This document shows positions 48,102 through 64,000 of a stretch of 64,000 bases of DNA, piece after piece. Location of the stretch: assembly GCF_000151315.2 (NCBI RefSeq), contig NW_011887297.1, positions 473,587 to 537,586 of the forward strand, given 5' to 3'. This DNA comes from Capsaspora owczarzaki ATCC 30864 (lineage: Eukaryota > Opisthokonta > Filasterea). The notes under the pieces are model-generated. The model was not told the DNA's origin. It did no database searches and worked only from the letters and a program-made list of their open reading frames with translations. Each line of letters starts with the position of its first letter. The stretch's first letter is position 1. Position numbers and translations under genes: made by a program.

Positions 48102-48163
<62 letters not shown>

Positions 48164-48548: not shown

Positions 48549-49062
48549 CGAAACGGACGGATGAGATGCTCAGATTTGCCTCACTGCTTGGTGTCCAGCT
48601 CGTGGGTGTCTTCCAGCATCCAATATAAACCACGTTTGCATTTGACGCTGCAGAGTGTCTCTGTGGCGTATCTGGACACCTCGTTTGGTCAGAACCCACA
48701 CAATCGGTAAGGTGAGCAATGAGCAGTCAAGTCTCCTCGACAAGCTCAAGTCTCGGGCACGATAATTTTTCCAGACTCGGGTGCTTGACAGTCAGGAGGA
48801 CAGCAACACAGAACGACAAACAAACAAACAACCAACCAAACAACAAAAGAAAATCACAACTAACAACAAAAGAAAGCAAGGGTCAAGCACAAAAACAAAC
48901 AAACAACCACACAAGCAAACAAACAAACAAAGAAACCAGAAGGAAAGCAGGGACAAGCACGCTAGAGCTGGCTCGACGATGGCATTGTATTCGAAACAAT
49001 CAGTCTTTGTTTTTGATCTTCTTGTGGATTGTTTATTGTGTAAAAATCTTTGCGTTTCTCAA
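48549..49062. other. Upstream region and leader of the LRR gene
   Basis: Contains many imperfect CAAA/AACA repeats (48818-48935), complementary in type to the TTTG array near 9.3 kb. There are upstream ATG codons (48719, 48979) in frames that do not look coding. Probably 5' UTR and promoter. Confidence 0.4.
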
Positions 49063-52000
49063 ATGGCAAAGAAGGCGGTACCCTCGGCTGCTCCTGCTCC
49101 TACTCCTACTCCTGTGCGCGCTACAAGAGCCACCAAGCCAAAGACTGGTGGCAGCATCAGTAGCACCGACGCAGTGGAAGACGATCGTGTGGTCGCGCCA
49201 ATGGAGGTCGATCCACCCAAACCCAAGCGAGCTGCTGCCCGTGCTGCTGCCACTGCTGCTGCTGCCACTGCTGCTACATCAGCAGTACAAGTGGCTACTA
49301 CTACTATTGCTGCTCCGCGAGGCAGGACCAGCAAGGCAGCCGCACCTGTCCCTGCCACTTCAATCTCAGCGCCGCTCAGCAAGGTGCCGCTCCTGCCCAA
49401 AGAGTTGTGAGGCGTAATGCCACTCCACTAGCTCGTCGCTGACATCTTGTTTGCTTCGTTTGTGATTCCTACTGTTTGATTTTTCACATAACGCCAGACC
49501 GCTCAGAAGAAGGCCACTGCACCAACCAACCAAGGATCTCAGACTGTGAGCTACCATCTTCGTGCTCGCAAACCCATTCAGGTTGCAATTGCGCGTACTG
49601 GCAAGACGAGTTCAACTTCCAGTAGTGGCGCCCCCACGACCATCCGGAGCAAGCGTCGGGCTGCTGAAATGGCCGGGGAGAACACCTCAACATCCAAGAA
49701 GAACAAGAAGAAGGCTCGTCAAACGGATGCTGACGATGCTGACGACGGCGATTACGAGGACTGCGACGACGACACTGCTGGCGACGGCGACGACAACCAG
49801 GACAGCAAGAAGCTCAGCAGGGAGGAAGCGATTGGTGAAGCACTCCTGCAAAACACCACACTGACTACGCTCGAGTATGTACTTGTCGTCTTCTGCTAAC
49901 TCCATGTTTGTTTGATGCCTTGACTCACCGTATGGTTTCAGCTTGGGTTACCTTGTGGTTGACGATACAAAAATGCAGCCGATTGCGGCCGCGTTAGCGC
50001 AGAACAAAACGCTGACAACACTCTGGTATGTAAAGCAGGATCCGTTGCCAATGCCATGATAATGGCAGCTGTGCAAAGTCCCCCTTGCTCACTACTTTAC
50101 TTTCTGATAACAGGACTCAAAATTACATTGACGCAGTAATGTCCGATGCACTGACGCAAAACACCACTCTGACTGAACTCTCGTAAGTTGTTTTTGCACC
50201 ATTTGCCCGTGTTGCTTTGCGAGGTAATTGGCTCACCGTGTGACGACAGGGGTTACCTCGATGCCAATGGAGCGCGATCGATGGCAAAGGCACTGACGCA
50301 GAACGCCACGTTGACCACGCTCCAGTACGCACCCACTTTCGCATTTTGATTGCATTCCAGTGAACCATTGCAAACGCTCCATTTGTTTCGATGGCGTCGC
50401 TCACTTTGTGGTAACAGTGTGCACTCGGGCAAATTCGGCCCTGCCGAGGCAAACTCGATTGCCGCCATCCTGAAGCAAAACTCGACACTGACCACGCTCG
50501 TGTATGCTTCTTCCCTCTCATGCTGACCACTTCCGTGTCTGATTGCGAACATCAATCTAACTCTGTTTGTATGTCGCGGCCAGGTTGGATAATACGAAGA
50601 TTGGAGACTTGGGAGCTCATGCGATTGGAGAAGCGCTGAAATCAAACACCACTTTGACTGCACTCCGGTAAGGATTCCACCACTCTCTTCCTCGTCTGCG
50701 AGTTGCTTGTTCGCTGATAAGTTGAATCGTATATTGAATTATTGATTCTCATTGCATGGTCACCAGCTTGATCGACAACGATATTGGCAGCGCTGGAACG
50801 CAAGCGATTGGAGAGGCACTCAAGACCAACTTGGCATTGACTACGCTTGTGTCAGTGCCACTCTCATGCTGAATCATTGCTTGAGATCATTATTGGAGCT
50901 GCTGTGATGTTTGTTGCTCACTTCATTGTAATAGTTTGAGTACCGAGATTGGCGAAGCTGGAGCACGTGCGATCGCTGAGGCTCTGGTGTGCAACAAGAC
51001 GTTGACCACGCTTTCGTACGTACTGCCGGATGGATGTTGTGACTCTGGGTGCCACTGCTGCGTTGTTATGCCATCGCTGACATCAATTGCCACAGGCAGT
51101 ATTGGTGTTCGATTGGAGATGCTGGAGTTGAAGCGATTGTCCACGCGCTCGAGAAGAACACGACGCTGACCTCCCTCAAGTATGATCCTCCCTTCTCATT
51201 TTGACTGAATCCATGTCTTTGTAACTGCACGTGCTGTTCCACTCGTCATATCGCTCACTGCAATGCTCGCAGTTTGAAAAACAATATCACTCTCGGTTCT
51301 GGCGCGCAGGCGGCGATACCACGGATGCTCCAAGTGAACACGACGCTGACTGAGCTTGAGTACGTGACAGCTCCTACCTTTATCCCCCTACCCCAAACGA
51401 AAAGCAGAAAGATGAAGAGAACGAAAATCGAGACAATCAACGTTGCCTTCTGCCTTCAAGTAGCGCATGCTCACACATTGATTATAGTCTGGGTGCCAAT
51501 AACTTGAACAGCGTTGGATTCCAAGCAATTGCAGAAGCGCTCGCGAAAAATACTTCTCTCACGAAACTCTCGTACGAGATCTTCGCTTTGTGTTGATGAA
51601 TGTTGTGCTGTATTGTGGTATCCGATGGTATGGCTCATCGCTTTGGGAATAGACTTATGGGTGACGAAATGGAAGTAGCCGGAGCGCAGGCGATTGCTAC
51701 AGCACTCAAGAGCAACACCACACTGACCACACTCGAGTATGTTTGCAATCTGTCATGCCGGTTTGACGCTATCACTCTTGATTATCAAAGTAATTTGAAA
51801 TTCTCACTGCTTGAGCACAGTCTGGACCACAGTTGGTTTGGTGATGCCGGTGCTCAGGCCATTGCGGATGCTCTTCGGCAGAACAAGACGCTTACCACTC
51901 TGCAGTATGTTTTTCGGCCGCACATTGGCCCATTTCTCGTCTGCAAAGGCACAAAGATTAACTTTTCTTGTATTGCGTGTCACGTGTCAAGTCTCAATGA

Positions 52001-55000
52001 CTGCAGGATTGGCACTGCTGGACTCCAAGCGATCGGACGAGCACTCGCGCAGAACAACACGTTGACCACGCTCAAGTACGTTTGGGAATGCTGTTGTTGA
52101 GAGCGAGGCTATATTCTGGTGATTCACTTTCTTACCACTTGAAAACACAGTCTTTCAAGGAATCCGATTGACGATGTTGGTGCCAACAGCATTGCCGAAA
52201 TGCTGAAGTCGAACACAAGTTTGACCACTCTCGAGTACGTTCTATGCTCCTGTTGTTGTGGAACTGGTTGTTGCTGCTTTTACTCACGGTCAGCCAACAG
52301 TCTGAGTTGCAGTCAACTTTGTTTTAAAGTGCACGAGATTGCCGAAGCTCTCAAGCAGAACACGGCGCTGACGACACTCGAGTAAGGGTTTCGAACACCT
52401 TTCTGTCACTCATACACAATTGCTGTTCCTTGACCGTTCTATTACTCACGGCTTTGCTCAATCAGTTTATCTTCCAATGCTCGTGGGTTTATTGCCTTTA
52501 ACCCTATCGGCGCTGTTGGAGCGCAGGCGATTGCCGAGGCCCTGAAGCAGAACAAGACCCTGACGACGCTGCGGTACGTTCTTTGTTTGCTGATTGATGT
52601 GAAACCTGAAGGCGGGGCGACCTGCTTGTTGGTATTCTCACTTAGCACGTGGTTGCAGTCTGAATAACAATGCCATTGGCACTGCTGGTGTGAAACCTAT
52701 TGCCGAGGCGCTCAAAGTGAACACTGCGCTGACCACGCTCGAGTATGTTCAATCTTCCGCGGTGATTGATGTTGTCATGCCTCACTGTAATTACTTTCCT
52801 TGTTATGTGGGAGCAGGTTGGAGGATTGTTCCATTGGTGATGCTGAGACGCAGGCAATTGCACCCGCACTTGTTCAGAACACGACTCTAACCTCGCTCAA
52901 GTATGTACCAACCGGCATGCTGATTTGCCTCGATGCTTGATTCACTGAAACTGACACTGTTTCTGGGATTAGACTAGGGAACGGCGTGCTTGGCAAAGCT
53001 GGAGCGCACTCGATTGCCACTGTGCTGAAGCAAAACGCCAAGCTCACCACCCTCGAGTACGGTCACCTTTCATTGTGTGTCGTTTGATGCTCCGAAAGCG
53101 ATAGCAAGTGCTAATTGATGATTCATGGTTCGTTTTCTTGTTTGGTTGTTTGTTTTCTTCACCGTGATGGCATCACAGGGTGACGGCTCGCTTTGTTGAC
53201 TCAGGAGTGCAAATGATCGCAGCCGCACTCAAGCACAACACTACGCTGACCACGTTCAAGTAGGTTGCAATCCCTCGTGCCGGTCAAAATCTCACGTGTG
53301 CGCATAAAATGATTCTTTCTGATGCGATTACTCACGGCGTGATTCCAGGTTGCGCGACATGAAGCGCTATGACCCTGAATTCGAGCGTGAAATGTCAGAA
53401 CCATTGACCACAGAGCGGTATGTTGTCCTGCAGTTGACATTCACTCTGAAGTGGCCAGAGGTGGTCGTTCACGCAACTTGTCACCGTGTGGTCACAGTCT
53501 GCTGCCGCAGGTGCGTAATCCGCATGGATTTGGACTCGAAAAAGCCCTGTCGCGGGTTTCCAGGCTTTTGTATGTTCCTTCTCCCTTCTCCTGTTGTTCC
53601 CCCTTCTATGACGACGACGCATGTGATGCTTCTTTCGATGGATATAAGTAACTCAGTTTATGCGGACAGCTTGCGTGAGAACATTGTTGACTCTGCTGGA
53701 GTGCAAGTGATTCAAGAGGTTCTGAGTTTGATCAAGCCAAGCAAGCTTGAGTAAGTTCTCGTGTTCGGTTGGTGTTGTGACTTTCATTGCAACTCACATT
53801 GATTGTTGTTCACGACACTGTTTAGGATTTACTTTGGCCTTGACGACTTTGGAGCGCAAGTGCTTGCGACATCACTCAAGCAGAACTCTTGGATGACCGA
53901 GCTCAAGTTTGTTTGCTTCTTTCGCGCTGATGTTATTTGTTCTGGGGGAGGAGGGGTGGCGTCGGTGGTGTCGGTGGTCGGTCGGATTGATTTTTGATGC
54001 GAGCACATCAGCGCTCACCGTGACAACAGTCTGCGTTCCAGTCAGGTTGGCCCGATTGGAGCCCAAGCGATTGCAGAAGCGCTGACGCAGAACACCAAGC
54101 TCATTATACTCAAGTATGTTGTCTTTCCATCGCGCTGGCTTGCTGATTGTTGTCGTTCTCGGCGTCGTCAACTAATCGCTGCTTGATCATGTCGGGGGTT
54201 TGTTCAATCACGACACGATTCTAGTCTGAGTTCCACTCAGCTCGGAGATGCAGGAGCGGAAGCGATTTCCAAGGCACTCAGGGTGAACACGACACTGACC
54301 ACTCTAAAGTACGAAATGGCTATTTCTGCCCTTGCTTATTGCGCCCTTTTGCTGCTGCACTACGTTGATGATACTGACGCTTTGAGCAGCCTGCGCGAGT
54401 GTTGGATTGGCAGTACAGGAGCAATGGCGCTGGCGGAGGAACTGAAGCACAACGTGGGATTGACTTCGTTCGAGTACGTTTCCGTTCGCTTGCTACCTTG
54501 CATGCTGAGCATGTCGTTTAATGAACAGTGATAGCGGTACTTACCTTTTGAGAGCAGTCTGTCCCGCAATTCTATTCGCGATAGTGGTGCAAATGCGATG
54601 GCGGCAGTGATTTCGCAGAACACAACACTGACTACTCTCGAGTATGTTCCTCTCGCTTTTCTGCTGCTTCGTGTCGCACTGGTAATTGAACAAGCTGCAT
54701 GTTACTCACTGCATTGTACACAGTCTCGGAAAGAATCATATTGGCGATGCTGGCGCCGAAAGGTTGGCAGAAGCGCTCCTGCGAAACACCACACTCAAAG
54801 TACTCGAGTATGTGACCATTATTTTGCAGATTGAGATCAACAATGAATGTGTGTACGTCCTGATCTGCAGTGCTTTTGCTCACTCCTATGCAAACAGTTT
54901 GTGGTATAACGAAATCGGGGAAGCCGGAGAGCTTGCGTTGGACAACGCACTCAACCAGAAGTCTGCATTTGTCTCGCTCAAGTATGGGTCCCCTTTCTCT

Positions 55001-55102
55001 GATGCTGATACTGTCGTGTATGCACGTGGTACTTACTGTTTGACGGTATGGCCTGGCTTTCTCACTTCAAACAGCTTGAGCGAGAATCAACCGCCGAATT
55101 AA
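49063..55102 (+). CDS. Leucine-rich-repeat (RNI/NLR-type) protein, one repeat per exon
   Basis: The N-terminal region starts MAKKAVPSAAPAPTPTPVR and is Ala/Pro/Lys-rich. A second part (SYHLRARKPIQVAIARTGK) is basic, then acidic (DADDADDGDYEDCDDD). The joint between the two (49376-49500) is uncertain; an AAG/GTGCCG donor in phase 0 with the acceptor before 49499 is one solution. From 49820 onward come about 30 ribonuclease-inhibitor-like repeats of 28 residues, of the form LxxNxIGDAGAQAIAEALKQ then NTTLTTL. Nearly every one is encoded by its own exon of about 84 bp, with all resolved introns in phase 2 inside the last codon of the repeat. The gene ends SLSENQPPN at 55102. Such arrays make horseshoe scaffolds for protein binding; RNI repeats occur in RanGAP, NLRs and many protist proteins. 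No NACHT, F-box or signal peptide is seen. The acidic/basic N-terminus suggests a nuclear or cytosolic protein. Partner and function are unknown. Confidence 0.75.
49943..54982 (+). repeat. Array of about 30 LRR exon-intron units
   Basis: Units of one 84-bp exon plus one 70-110-bp intron recur with a period of about 160-175 bp. Donors are mostly GTATGT, GTACGT or GTAAGN, placed so that the frame would read EYV through the donor. Most introns carry CTCAC, often CTCACGG or CTCACCG, 15-45 bases before the acceptor. Units near 51.5 kb and 54.0-54.8 kb are close to consensus. Those around 52.3 kb and 53.2-53.9 kb are degenerate. Confidence 0.8.
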
Positions 55103-55347
55103 CCAAAGAACGCTCGCTTCCTTTTCTCTGGTGGTGTGATGCTGTGTTTTCTTCTGATGATGACTTTTGCTCACTTCGAGGTAGCAGATTGTGTTTGAGT
55201 TCGGGTAGTTTTGTAGACGTAGTTTGTTTGTTTGTTTGAGCTTTCATTGAATTTCTTTTTTTTTTTTTTTTTTTTTTCCGAAGCGTTTCAGTTTTTTTTT
55301 TTTTTTGTTTTTTTGTATTTAATTTTTTTTTTTGAACGCCAGTCGCC

Positions 55348-58300
55348 ATGACAGACATGTGGTCGCGGCTCAACACCCTCACCAAGACGGTGCAGGACCG
55401 GATTGAGCACGTCGTCGAGGATCTCGGGATGAACGCTGCTGCTCCTGGAGGTGGAGCGGGCGACGGCGGCCCGGCCGAAGCGGCGAAAGCAGGAGGAGAT
55501 CAAGCCGGTGGAGCCACGTCGTCACCCTCATCGACGCCCGAGGTCGTGACGGGCAGCAAGAGTGGACTGCAGCAGCAGGCCAACAGCACCAGTGGCTGGA
55601 ATCCCAGCGGCGACGCGGACGACAAGCAGCGCCGCATCGAGCAGCTCGAGCAGGAGACGGCTGGGCTCCGAACCCAGCTGGTCGAGCTCAACCAGACCGC
55701 CGAGCTCAAGTTCAACAAGCTCAAGAACCAGGCCCAAGCCAAGCTCGCCGCGGTCAAGCAGGAGCTCAAGCAGTACAAGGAGGCGGCCGGTGCCGGTGCC
55801 GGTGCCGGTGCCGGTGCAGGCGACTCAATGGCCTCGTCTGCAGCCAACTCTGGACGAGCAACGCCTGCCTCGGCCGGTGTGCTCAACGAAAGCCTCAACG
55901 CGAGCGCCATTGCGGCTGGAGATACGAGTTTCGCCGCGGAAGACCACTCGGCCACCTCGAACGCGCTGGCGGTGGCCAACTCGGCGCTGCGGGAAGCCGA
56001 GGACAAGCGTCGCGCGTTGACATCCAAAGTGTCGGAGCTCGAGTCCCAGCTCGCGACGGCCCAGCAGCAGCACCGGCAACAAGCTGATGCAGAGCTCAAG
56101 CAAAAGCTGGATCAGCTCCGCGAGGAGCATGCCGAAGAGAATGACGATTTGCAAACCCGCATTTCTGAGCTTCAGCAATCACTCAAGCAGGCTCAGCAGA
56201 GCGGCCTCCAGCAGCAGCAGACCGACCAGGCGTTGCAACAGTCTCGTGCGCACGTGCTGCAGCTCCAGGCCGAGGTTGATTTACTCCGCCAGCAGTCGTC
56301 CACCGCATCCGCATCCGCATCCGCACCCGCCCCGGCGGCCAATGAGAGCAGCATCAACCAAGAGCTAAGCGAACGTGTTGCCGAATTGGAGCAGCAGCTG
56401 CACGAACGCGTTACTGGGCTGGAGCAGCAACTTGCCGACTCCCAGCGACTCATTTCCAAGCTACAATGGGATGCGGACTCGGCAGAGGAGCTACGCACCG
56501 AAAAGGAAGAGTTGGAGCAAAAGCTTGAAAACTCTGTGCCCCGTGCGCAGCATGAAAGCGAACTTGCCCGCATTCGCGCGACCGGCGAAGAGGCACAACA
56601 ACAAGTGTCTGTGCTGCGCGAGCAGCTTGCCGCTGCTGCGTCGCAACAGCAGGCCACCATCCCCGACAACTCGGCCGACCTGGTCGTTCAGCTCCAAGCC
56701 CAAGTCGCTGCTCTCCAGCTTGCCGCCTCTGCTGCCGAGGAGGAGAAGACTGAGCTCGCCGCCCGTGCGACCGAGCTTCAACAGACACTGGACGCGGCAT
56801 CGGATGCTCGCGCGGTGTTGGTCGAGCAAGTTGATGTCCTCCGTCAAGCTGCCAGCACGGCAGACGCGCAACATGCTGCGCTTTTGGCCAAGCACAGCGC
56901 GGATCTTGCGTTGGCACAGTCCGCTGCCCAAGCGAACTCGGCCGCGGAAGCCGAGACCGCCCGCGAGCAAGGTGCTGCCGAAGCCGAGCGTTTGCGGGCG
57001 TCGATCGCTTCCTTGACTGCCGAGCTGGATTCTTCGAAGCAGTCTGCCACTGCAAGCATGGAGCAGAGCGCCGCCCTCTCTTCGGAGATTGCCCAGCTTC
57101 GCAGTACTGCGAGCGAAGCGACCGCTCTCATCGCCCAACAACACGCCGACGAGCTGGAGCGCGTCCGTGCCGAGGCAAAGGCTGCAACCCAAGCACAAGC
57201 GGCACTCCAACAGCGCGTGCAGCAGCTTGAGGCCGAGGTGGCGTCTGCATCGGCTGCGGTTGCATCCTCGACAGAGGCATCCCAAGAACTCGAAACCTTG
57301 CGGCAAGTGCACGCCGAGCACCTTGCATCGGGCTCCGAACGCGAAGATGCGCTTCGCACGGAACTGTCTGCTGCTCGTCAACAACTCGCAGCGCAGGCAG
57401 CTCAGGCCGAGGCTGCTGCGTCGGCGTCCGCCTCCGAGCAAGAGGGGCAAGTTTCGGCTCTGAACGAGCGCATTCGCGACCTGGCGGCGCAGCTGGCAGC
57501 TGCACAAGCCGCATCAGCACCGGCTCAGCAGACCAGTCAAGACGCGATTGCCACTGCTGTTCAACACGCTGATCGCGAAGCCTCGCTCCAGCAACAAGTG
57601 TCTGCCGCGAATTCCAAGTGCGCCGAGCTGGAACAGACCCTGGCCACGCTTCAACAGCAGCAGACCTCCAGTAGCGCAGATGTTGATGCTCGCATGAGTG
57701 CTGCTGCTGAGCAAGTGCGTGATTTGACGCAGCAGCTCGCTGCTGCTACCGCGCAAGCCGCGTTGGCACAGTCTGCCACGGATCAGGTGGCGGCACTGCA
57801 GGCCCAGCTTTCTGCTGCCGGCCAAACACAAGCTCTCGTGGCCGATTTGCAGACGCAGTTGGAGCGTCAAGCCGCACTCGAGCAGCAGCTGCGCGGTGAA
57901 ATGGCACGCAACGCTGAACTCCAGAGTGCCGAGTCTCGCGACTTGAGCTCGCTGCGCTCGCATGCGCACGATCTGCAGAGCAGGCTGTCCGAAGCGCTGG
58001 CGACTGTTGACCGGTTTGAGCAGGAAGCTGCGCTCAAGCAGTCCCACGCTGCCGTGCAGCAGCAGACCTTTGAGTCAGAGCGCGCGGCCTTCCGCAACCA
58101 GGTCGGGCAGCTGGAAGCGGCACTTGCTGGCAAGTCGCGTTTCGAGTCGTCGCAAGCGGACGAGCTCACGCAGCTACGCCAGGAGCTTGCAACGGCGACT
58201 GGCCTGGCCGCCCAAGCGCAACTGATGCGAGACGAGCGCGACCGCATTCGCGCGTCTGTGGGCGAGCTCGGCGAACAGCTCGCGGCAAGTCAACAACGCG

Positions 58301-59196
58301 AGTTGGCGTCCGCGTTGCTCGCAACACAGTTGAAAGAGCGCCTGGATGAAGTTTCGGTGCAACACCAGCAGCTGGCTCAAGCAGCACCGTCCCAGGAGAC
58401 GCAGGGCGCGGTGGACAAGCTGGAGCAGCGGGTCCGGGCGCTCACGCAGGAGCTCGAGCACACCAAAGCCGTGGCCGTTCAACAGCAGCAACAGCAACAA
58501 CAGCATCAGTTCCAAACTGCCTCTGCAAGTGCCGAGACACAACAGCAGCTGCAGCAACAGTTGCAGCAGCAATTGCAGCAGCATCGTCGTGAAGTTGACC
58601 AACTTCGCGCCGAGCTCGCCCGTGAAGTCGCCAACAGGCAATCTGCTGCCGAGCCGCACGTGAGTTTCCGCAGCGTGAGTGTTGTTTGCTTTTTTTTTTT
58701 TTTGGGGGAGGCGGGGCGGGCAGTTTCGGGCTTTTCTTTTTTCGTTTCTTTCTTTGCTTGAACAAACAATTCTGAGGCGCAGCGAATGCCAACCAATTCT
58801 GACACCAACCTTTCCGTGTTCAAACAGACTCCTATGGATTCGTGGGGAAGTGGCGCAAACTACGATTCTGGAAACGAAACTGGCGATTTCGACGTCGAGG
58901 CCGGCGCGTTCGAGCGAGGTGAGGAAGCGACAAAAAGCATTTGTGGTTTTTTTGTTTTTGGCCAGGAGTGTGCGTGTTGATCAAAACGCTCATGAATGTG
59001 TTTCCTTGTTCCATGTGCAGCCTCCAACCCGATCGATAAGGCCAAGATTCTCAGCCGCAAAGCTCTACGCGCTCTGAATACTGTCAGCATTCAAGCCAAT
59101 CGCAGCTTGCGCTCTCGCCCGTTGGTGCGCATTTCCGCGCTCGTTTATCTGGTTTTGCTTCATGTTTATTTGATCTACTCCATTCTTGTTGTGTAG
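55348..59196 (+). CDS. Tail-anchored long coiled-coil protein, golgin-84-like
   Basis: Golgin-84 tethers vesicles at the Golgi through a long coiled coil and is anchored by a C-terminal helix. Three exons, 55348-58659, 58783-58918 and 59021-59196, give 1207 residues. The N-terminus MTDMWSRLNTLTKTVQDRIE is a short amphipathic helix followed by a Gly/Ala/Ser-rich region. About 950 residues of Gln/Ala/Glu-rich heptads follow (ELNQTAELKFNKLKNQAQAK; QRVQQLEAEVASA). Exon 3 encodes LSRKALRALNTVSIQANRSL and then the membrane helix LVYLVLLHVYLIYSILVV at the very end. That tail matches the style of golgin-84 (an Arg-rich lead, then a helix with LLHL). Internal short repeats (GAGAGAG; ASASASA) lie in the DNA at 55785-55820 and 56308-56330. 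Coiled coils give little specificity, so the name rests on overall layout and the tail. Confidence 0.7.
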
Positions 59197-61805: not shown

Positions 61806-64000
61806 ATGAAGCTCTCATCAAGCGGTCTGGCGGCGGCGCTCGCACTGGTGCTGCTGGCACATTCCGCCGCGGCTGTGGTTCTGCCCGTCAATGTCACCTT
61901 TGAGCCGCTTCCTGCGGCCAACTACACGCCAACGAAGAGCCTGGAAAGCGTGAACGAACTCAACAATGCAGGCTTGCGGGGCTCGGTCAACTTTGCGCGC
62001 TCGATGGTGCGGACCGCGGTCGGCACCTTCAGCATGACGTTCGTGCAGCAGCAAATCCAGGCCGAGCAGAACGGCAACGGCGTGGACTCGGATGCGGTCA
62101 AGGACGAGGCCATCTCGTTCTTCACGCCGGCAGCCATTGTGATTGGCCTCGGTGTTGTCTGCGCCATCATTGTGCCCATTGTGGGCCTGTTCTTTTGCTG
62201 CTGCCGTTGCTGCGGCAACTGCGGCGCTCGTCCGCTCCAGAAGAACAACACGCGCAAATGCCGCAACTGGCTCATCTTCTTCCTGCTCGTGTCCATCCTG
62301 TTTGTCTTTGCCGGCATGGTCTTGGCGTTTGTGAGCAACAAGCGCTTCTCCCAGTCGCTGGATGTTGCCAGCGAGGCAGGCCACAATGGCGTCGACAATG
62401 TGGGCATCTTTTTGAACAACACCATTGCCGAGGCCGAGCAGCTGATCAACAACTTTGACGCCTATGTCGACGAAGCGCGCAATCTGATCAACCTCGTGGA
62501 TGACCAAGTCGGCGCGCTCGTGCAGGACGACATTGCGCCCACCGTTTACAGCATGCTTGATGTTCTTGTGCAAATGGATCAGAGCATCAATGCGACATAC
62601 ACGCTCGTCGACGAGGTCCACACCGAGCTGGACGACATTCTCAGCCAAGCCAGCGCCATCAACGAGACTCTGGCGTGGATGCAAAGCGCGACGAACGATA
62701 TGATCACTGCATGCCAGGCACTGACGTCCCCGCCGCCGGATTGCGCGATCGTTGCGGCCTCGGTTTTCGGCCAAGCCTTTGATTTCTCCTCCATCACCGA
62801 CCTCTCGATCGAGCTTGCTGCCATGACTGCAGTGTACGACCAGCACATTAACCAGTTTATTTCGACGGCCAACAGCTCGTTCAACGACCTCGCCACCGAC
62901 GTTCAAGACCAAATCGATGTCTACCGCACCGACGCCATCCAGGCCATTGACGACATTTCCGCGACCATCCACGACAACATTGATGATGCGCGTGACACGG
63001 TCAACACTGTCATTACAGACCAAGTCGATGCCCCCGCGCGCCACGAGAGCATTGATGACGCGATGGATACTGCAGAAACCTACGACAAGTACCGCTACCA
63101 GGGCGGTGTTGCGCTGTGCTGCATGATTCTGATTGTGGTCGTGCTGGCGTCCATTGGCCTGCTCATGGGCGTTCTTTCGAACGACGCCGCTGCACTCCCG
63201 TGCGATCGCAGTGGTACTTCCAACGCTGCTGGCAACTTTTTGATGGCGTCCGTCGTCTTTGCCTTTATTTTCATTTTCTTCATGTTCCTCTTTGCGGCCA
63301 TTGGATTCCTTCTGTCTAGCGGTGTGCATACTGTTTGCGATCCGATCACCGAGGGCACCATTTATTCGCAAGTTCTCGACGTCGACAGCACCTGGTCGAA
63401 CAGTGAGCACCCGCTGTGCAAGCTGGCCAACATTTCCACCGTCCCTTGCCCCCTGACCTTTGCTGGTGTTCTTCACGCGTGCGAACACAACGAAGCAGCC
63501 TACACCGCTCTGCATCTCAGCTCCCTTATCGACATTCAGGAACTCACTGACGTTGACAGCTACTTTAACATTTCCGACTTTTCCGCGAGCGTGAACATTG
63601 ACAATATTGTCATCTTTGACCAGGCCACTGAAGACTTGTTGCTTGATTTCGCCAACTCGGGCTTGGTTCAGGTGGACTATGAGCTGTACGAGAACATGGT
63701 TGCCAACCCTGGCCTGTCCTTCAACCCTACCACCGTCACAAATGACCTCGACCAGCTTCAGAGTGAATTGAACCCGGTGGTTCCCGAAGAACTTGCCGTC
63801 TCCAACATGATTGACGCGATCAAGGCCAACATCACCGCTGTAGGTTTTCTTCAGACAGTAAAAGTGCTTGTGTCGGGGCTGTTGTCACTCCACTCACATG
63901 GCACGTTGCTTCCGTTTGATTTTCTCTTCCTTTTGATTTTTTTAAAACCTCCATTTGCAGGTTAACGCGATGGCGAGCAATTTGCAAACTTCCATCACGA
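61806..64000 (+). CDS. Prominin-like (CD133 family) pentaspan membrane protein, N-terminal part
   Basis: Prominins sit in plasma-membrane protrusions and bind cholesterol. Exon 1 is 61806-63839 and joins in phase 0 to an exon from 63961 that runs off the right edge. The start gives a signal peptide (MKLSSSGLAAALALVLLAHS). Membrane segment 1 (AAIVIGLGVVCAIIVPIVGL) is followed by the family-typical Cys-rich loop FFCCCRCCGNCGARP. Segment 2 is WLIFFLLVSILFVFAGMVLA. Next comes a large extracellular loop with helical repeats and N-glycosylation sites. Segments 3 (ALCCMILIVVVLASIGLLMG) and 4 (VFAFIFIFFMFLFAAIGFLL) follow, and then the start of the second large loop with Cys pairs (HTVCDP, HPLCKLAN, STVPCPL). 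Topology and the CCRCCGNCG motif support prominin. Segment 5 would lie beyond the window. Confidence 0.88.

Follow-up and report, generated by a model that had tools for sequence, protein, structure and literature searches.

We analysed a 64,000-nucleotide stretch of the Capsaspora owczarzaki ATCC 30864 genome (assembly GCF_000151315.2, contig NW_011887297.1, positions 473,587 to 537,586), referred to here as the window. It holds a complete leucine-rich repeat (LRR) gene on the forward strand, which runs from an ATG at 49063 to 55102 and encodes a product of 1068 residues. The exons are listed in Table 1. Read exon by exon, the array from 49942 to 54981 consists of 30 consecutive LRR exons, each about one repeat long, with two upstream coding exons and a last exon outside it. 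Each is flanked by AG and GT, is free of stop codons, has a length that is a multiple of three, and is entered and left in phase 2. Nineteen are exactly 84 bp long, and the others measure 81 bp (five exons), 69 bp (two), 72, 75, 87 and 108 bp. The introns of the gene are 66–128 bp long and the exon-intron period is approximately 170 bp. The original prediction for this DNA had proposed about 30 consecutive 84-bp LRR exons with phase-2 introns, any of which could be skipped, duplicated or lost without a change of frame. The array is real, the phase is as proposed and the frame argument holds for 30 of 30 exons; the exact length of 84 bp is found only in the 19.

Units 2–3 and 20–24 are short or degenerate. 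No two units of the array are more than 73% identical, and mean identity is nearly flat over distance, at 0.616 for lag 1 and 0.598–0.607 for lags 9–11. Duplication of the units is therefore old, and none of it is recent.

The encoded protein has two distinct parts. The first 220 residues form a charged, low-complexity region rich in A, T, S, K and D, in which large hydrophobic residues make up 11.8% and no 19-residue stretch has a hydropathy above 1.12. No Pfam family scores above the cut-off in this region, its basic runs resemble nuclear localization signals (NLS) by eye only, and from composition alone it appears disordered. The remainder of the product matches Pfam LRR_6 (E 3.7e-76). The Pfam scan of the spliced protein returned four LRR families together with a SpoU_sub_bind match inside the LRRs (29.8 bits, cut-off 22.8), which is above the cut-off and which we take as spurious. 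The same scan gave no NACHT domain and no ROC-COR domains, and the kinase part of the TKL/IRAK kinase CAOG_09128 has no tblastn match in the whole window. The product shows no evident signal peptide or membrane segment, and this LRR-only solenoid is probably intracellular.

By sequence, the best solved relatives (the best 60 of 85 matches) include GALA, ribonuclease inhibitor (RI), LRRC34 and NLRP LRR domains. The ribonuclease inhibitor structure 1dfj matches at E 4.1e-29, and a RanGAP1 chain at E 4.2e-17 is one among many LRR chains, RanGAP being a name that one source gives to some relatives. The LRR_6 match and the ribonuclease inhibitor structure matches place the solenoid in the RI-like class of tandem LRR_6-type repeats. 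In the structural model of a Capsaspora relative, P0093 (overall predicted local distance difference test score, pLDDT, 70.6, and above 90 over most LRRs), the strand occupies repeat positions 26, 27 and 0 and the helix positions 7–20. This layout puts positions 2, 3 and 5 just after the strand. The introns split codon 0 of the repeat and fall within the predicted beta-strand.

The window gene has close relatives elsewhere in the genome. In a search of 27.46 Mb on 29 contigs, a 913-nt probe gave 27 matches, of which 11, including the window, are near full length and the others cover at most 234 nt. The ten paralogues lie on C2, C6 (two), C7, C9, C11 (three) and C17 (two). They are dispersed, with two on the window's own contig and the rest on five others, and pairwise identity among the copies is 85.5–92.3% over exons and introns. 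Homology to the window begins 8 nt upstream of the ATG, at 49055, in seven of the ten paralogues, at 49048 in one, and further upstream in C17:431k and C2:2366k. It ends at 55237/55238 in five paralogues and at 55265–55316 in four, and in the truncated C11:1180k it is lost near 54484. There are at least two types of 5' flank. The first is common to the window, C17:431k and C2:2366k, and the second is found in C6:990k, C17:541k, C11:319k, C11:393k and in part in C7:970k and C9:371k; the 5' flanks of C6:592k and C11:1180k match no copy at the threshold used. Given this switch of flank so close to the start codon, the copies may differ in promoter. How far the 3' flanks are shared depends on the pair of copies compared, with a maximum of about 1.5 kb; this variation speaks against an element with fixed ends. 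A kinase-like match (34% and 31% identity) at about 49–653 of locus L034 lies no more than about 1.5 kb from the 3' end of C11:319k.

The reading frame is open over all exons in five of the eleven copies (the window, C17:431k, C17:541k, C6:592k and C11:319k). Frameshifts occur in C2:2366k, C6:990k, C7:970k and C11:393k, and an in-frame stop in C9:371k. This damage is confined to single copies and may represent recent decay or sequence errors, and the exon length differences that are shared between copies are all multiples of three. Splice dinucleotides are AG or GT at 695 of 695 sites checked across the eleven copies up to the truncated end of C11:1180k, while 566 of 1876 intron-interior columns are variable among ten copies. 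Chance is excluded as the reason for this conservation, and the exon structure has been under selection until recently. We also considered intron lengths divisible by three as a kept feature, as found for 18 of 31 introns in the window gene (P 0.011 for 17), and rejected it because the count ranges from 8 to 18 across the ten full copies. Within the length limits of the search of the public protein set, no relative exceeds 52% identity among the matches listed. Other Capsaspora LRR proteins are present in that set and the family's own copies are seemingly absent. The family has probably been left unannotated and overlooked, perhaps through masking as a repeat, and no published account of it appears among the Capsaspora titles and abstract openings listed for LRR, exon skipping, gene conversion, NOD-like receptors and innate immunity.

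The order of the units is fixed. Nine of the ten paralogues have all 30 units in the order of the window, and the tenth is truncated. We compared 296 paralogue units, which exclude units 27–30 of C11:1180k, with the 30 units of the window, and for 290 the closest window unit has the same ordinal (mean identity 0.911 for the same ordinal and 0.687 for the best other). In the remaining six cases the unit is always number 16, from a copy that lacks the 24-bp insertion present in the window; since identity was computed over the longer length, the insertion lowers their score. This LRR family is thus not diversified by the loss, gain or shuffling of units, and the reshuffling that the original prediction proposed is absent here.

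Exchange between the copies is nevertheless evident. Ten copies, without C11:1180k, provide 717 biallelic informative sites, and the four-gamete incompatibility of these sites rises steadily from 0.161 at distances under 20 columns to 0.603 at distances over 2000. Mean incompatibility over the 30 nearest sites is 0.406, compared with 0.565 after permutation, and none of 300 permutations gave a value as low. The dependence on distance is present separately in exon sites (364) and intron sites (353). Homoplasy alone would not produce such dependence, and we conclude that non-allelic copies have recombined. The conserved unit order means that this exchange runs in register. For the 20 pairs listed of 45, the longest stretch of polymorphic sites that two copies have in common extends over 114–387 bp and always lies above the 99% permutation threshold. 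Exchange tracts measure approximately one or two exon-intron units (about 100–400 bp). The copies are thus mosaics and form an ectopically converting multigene family. In-register exchange between genes does not need symmetric phase.

Selection was assessed by repeat position. The ratio of nonsynonymous to synonymous divergence (dN/dS) over units 1–26 has a pairwise mean of 0.58, with a mean intron divergence of 0.121, and in the N-terminal region dN is 0.042 and dS 0.093. The per-position analysis used the 19 units of 84 bp. The proportion of nonsynonymous differences (pN) is lowest at the conserved L, N, G and I positions of the repeat, and core positions are constrained (pN/intron 0.40). 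Relative to the intron rate in ten copies, pN is highest at position 3 (1.99), followed by positions 2 (1.59) and 5 (1.46), and the value at position 3 is higher than the maximum of every one of 2000 label permutations. With these three positions chosen post hoc, after a first look at the data, pooled pN in eleven copies is 0.189 against 0.109 in flanking introns, a ratio of 1.74 (bootstrap 1.30–2.17). A split-half test, in which three positions are re-chosen in one half of the units and tested in the other, gives a mean of 1.43 (0.95–1.90); 4.4% of the splits yield 1 or less, and positions 3, 5 and 2 are the ones most often picked. Raised synonymous differences (pS) had suggested a local mutation effect at positions 2, 3 and 5, a suggestion to which 4-fold sites gave no support. 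In ten copies, using pairs with equal first two bases, their rate is 0.102 at these codons and 0.098 elsewhere, so the neutral rate there is not raised. We regard this as moderate evidence, not proof, of diversifying selection at the edge adjoining the strand.

The genome contains further LRR genes of similar construction. We scanned 34 loci (L001–L030 and L041–L044), which are the best matches to the window gene and not a random sample, and found strict 84-bp phase-2 LRR exons in 33. By place, the window and its copies account for 14 of those scanned, and the others correspond to 15 distinct LRR places outside the family, 14 of which have such exons; the exception is L010 (C1:903k). One LRR per phase-2 exon is therefore common among the LRR genes of this genome and was inherited, not made for the window gene. 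Units can be younger in sister LRR genes, where exon-exon identity reaches 93–95% and intron-intron identity 99%. L011 (C9:1090k) contains two 150-nt blocks that are 97% identical, and comparison with its paralogue L003 (C9:1122k, about 32 kb away) shows a two-unit block duplicated in tandem and in frame. The duplication mechanism of the original prediction thus acts in this genome, but in these sister genes and not in the window family. A kinase match covers nearly all of the kinase part in L005 and L041; in L016 and L015 the end of the locus truncates it. None was found within 8 kb of L042, L043 or L044, and a kinase is thus not seen in every relative. Several CAOG proteins among the public matches are named as LRR-bearing TKL/IRAK kinases.

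Taken together, these data suggest, with a probability of roughly 0.55, that the window gene is an intact member of a dispersed eleven-copy LRR-solenoid family whose strand edge binds partners and is diversified by selection and in-register conversion. The solenoid would bind its partners along the edge just after the strands, and the copies would diverge at this edge under diversifying selection. In-register ectopic gene conversion would reassort the variants among loci and keep the scaffold alike. Each gene would contribute one recognition surface, and the related surfaces together would make up a small germline set, in place of many surfaces produced by a single gene through splicing or unequal exchange. 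On this reading a unicellular organism closely related to animals would diversify LRR surfaces between loci with the order of units unchanged, and exon-per-repeat structure would be separable from repeat shuffling, two things often taken together. Capsaspora would then be a laboratory protist in which to ask about the role of LRR repertoires outside animal immunity.

Several observations weigh against this reading. Six of the eleven copies carry a frameshift, a stop or a truncation, Pfam scans of the window protein gave no signalling domain, and the assembly of such a repeat family may contain artefacts. The concave face of LRRs follows the xxLxLxx rule, from which a set of positions (25, 26, 0, 2 and 3) was fixed beforehand. 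This set gives a ratio of 1.17 (0.92–1.46), not clearly above neutral, and positions 25–26 are conserved. Positive selection on solvent-facing residues, raised in the original prediction, has a moderate signal at the post hoc positions and no clear one in the set fixed beforehand. The ratio at positions 2, 3 and 5 is alike in the five intact copies (1.68) and the six broken ones (1.76), the split-half interval extends below 1, and introns may not be a strictly neutral reference. The Nei-Gojobori (NG86) pN/pS at the three positions is 0.91 (0.58–1.44), a value that we discount, since the 4-fold result points to a multi-hit artefact. The pooled LRR dN/dS over units 1–26, 0.57, is compatible with relaxed constraint and, with the prespecified set and the broken copies, favours an ordinary, drifting scaffold family in which conversion homogenises passively, the post-strand loop is the least constrained part and there is no recognition role. 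Gene conversion is expected in any duplicated family of this kind and also counts for such a family. Relaxation alone does not give a pN at positions 2, 3 and 5 above both the intron and the 4-fold rates, and the permutation result at position 3 stands against it as well; we regard the scaffold explanation as possible but doubtful.

A platform in which one gene yields many surfaces as its symmetric LRR exons are skipped, duplicated or lost, as originally predicted, is distinctly unlikely. Every LRR exon is symmetric and the duplicated block in L011 is real, but unit order and number are fixed in nine of ten paralogues, the array has no unit pair above 73% identity, and the same exon pattern in 14 of 15 LRR places outside the family makes it no special feature. 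Published accounts, as far as they bear on this, lend the platform some precedent: Capsaspora has 191 cassette exons, 29 of which differ between stages, enriched in kinase genes, and its exon skipping is regulated (PMC3870316), and LRR exons are alternatively spliced in human NOD-like receptors (NLRs), as with the skipped exon 5 of NLRP3 (PMC6642158), and in brown-algal ROCOs (PMC11378527). Least probable of all is a decaying repeat family that spread as an element and now consists mostly of pseudogenes. The dispersal of the eleven copies, the identical first base of the shared span in seven of ten paralogues, the six damaged copies and the lack of a public protein above 52% identity among the matches listed would fit such a family. 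The intact splice dinucleotides, the in-frame shared length differences with frame damage in single copies only, the constrained core positions and the pairwise variation of the shared flanks do not.

The LRR-exon architecture itself is real, common in this genome and known elsewhere. Human NOD/NLRC genes, according to the account in PMC6642158, mostly encode each 28-residue RI-like LRR in a frame-preserving exon of its own whose border lies at a constant point of the beta-sheet, and the window gene agrees with this in its 30 units, 19 of exactly 84 bp and all in phase 2. It differs from them in that no NACHT or other NLR domain was found in its protein, in its number of units, and in being a dispersed multi-copy protist family of fixed order. 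Brown-algal LRR-ROCO genes, in the description given by PMC11378527, have shuffled and alternatively spliced 72-bp phase-2 LRR exons and four positively selected concave-side sites. The window family shares with them the single LRR per phase-2 exon and may share rapid change of residues close to the repeat's concave side. It differs from their 23-residue LRRs, their ROC-COR domains and their shuffled, alternatively spliced units, its own unit order being fixed. The Capsaspora LRR-TKL/IRAK kinases (CAOG_09128 and relatives; L005, L041 and in part L016) also have 84-bp phase-2 LRR exons. Unlike the window gene, whose units are old and which has no kinase match, they carry a kinase domain, and their units resemble one another more closely, some having been duplicated recently. 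Ribonuclease inhibitor is likewise an LRR-only solenoid of the RI class, a likeness drawn from sequence alone, and the window protein departs from it in its 30 units and 220-residue charged N-terminus. The novelty lies in the family itself: eleven copies, dispersed and apparently without annotation, that keep one unit order, exchange sequence in register from locus to locus, and show an excess of replacements along one defined edge of the repeat.

A bolder extension, which we consider unlikely, is that the family constitutes a germline repertoire of eleven LRR recognition genes, with a binding edge under diversifying selection and reassorted approximately unit by unit, in register, through conversion, perhaps for intracellular microbe sensing or for self/non-self discrimination in aggregation. 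If so, there would be a combinatorial LRR repertoire outside animals, in a unicellular animal relative, and the NOD/NLRC-like exon with one strand-split LRR would go back to the common ancestor of holozoans.

Table 1. Exons of the LRR gene and extent of the span shared with its paralogues.
Feature	Position	Strand	Remark
Exon 1, start codon, A/T/K/P-rich N-terminus	49063..49383	+	ATG, open in 1068-aa model
Exon 2, basic runs (NLS-like by eye), acidic D-rich stretch, first half LRR; phase 2 end	49498..49874	+	
LRR unit 1, 84 bp (90 in 7/10 paralogues)	49942..50025	+	
LRR unit 2, 69 bp	50114..50182	+	
LRR unit 3, 75 bp	50250..50324	+	
LRR unit 4, 84 bp	50418..50501	+	
LRR unit 5, 84 bp	50584..50667	+	
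LRR unit 6, 84 bp, donor GTCAGT	50767..50850	+	
LRR unit 7, 81 bp (84 in 10/10 paralogues)	50935..51015	+	
LRR unit 8, 84 bp	51096..51179	+	
LRR unit 9, 87 bp (84 in 1/10 paralogues)	51273..51359	+	
LRR unit 10, 84 bp	51488..51571	+	
LRR unit 11, 84 bp	51653..51736	+	
LRR unit 12, 84 bp	51821..51904	+	
LRR unit 13, 84 bp	51992..52075	+	
LRR unit 14, 84 bp	52151..52234	+	
LRR unit 15, 81 bp	52301..52381	+	
LRR unit 16, 108 bp, 24-bp in-frame insertion (paralogues: 108 in 4/10, 84 in 6/10)	52466..52573	+	
LRR unit 17, 84 bp	52659..52742	+	
LRR unit 18, 84 bp	52817..52900	+	
LRR unit 19, 84 bp	52973..53056	+	
LRR unit 20, 81 bp	53179..53259	+	
Unit 21, 69 bp, strongly degenerate	53349..53417	+	
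Unit 22, 72 bp, degenerate	53498..53569	+	
Unit 23, 81 bp, degenerate	53670..53750	+	
LRR unit 24, 81 bp, donor GTTTGT	53826..53906	+	
LRR unit 25, 84 bp	54030..54113	+	
LRR unit 26, 84 bp	54225..54308	+	
LRR unit 27, 84 bp	54390..54473	+	
LRR unit 28, 84 bp	54558..54641	+	
LRR unit 29, 84 bp	54724..54807	+	
LRR unit 30, 84 bp	54898..54981	+	
Last exon, half LRR and stop codon	55075..55102	+	Reading frame closes here
Span common to the window and nine of ten paralogues, 8 nt 5' of ATG to 135 nt 3' of stop	49055..55237	+	

Long T runs flank the LRR gene at 48103–48163 and about 55256–55335, and T-rich runs also lie 5' of the ATG in several other copies. On the same strand, 245 bp 3' of the gene, an open frame of 1137 residues (55348–58761) appears to be a coiled coil by eye and has no Pfam match. 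Further downstream, a 719-residue open frame at 61806–63965, also on the forward strand, encodes a prominin homologue (Pfam Prominin, E 1.7e-97).

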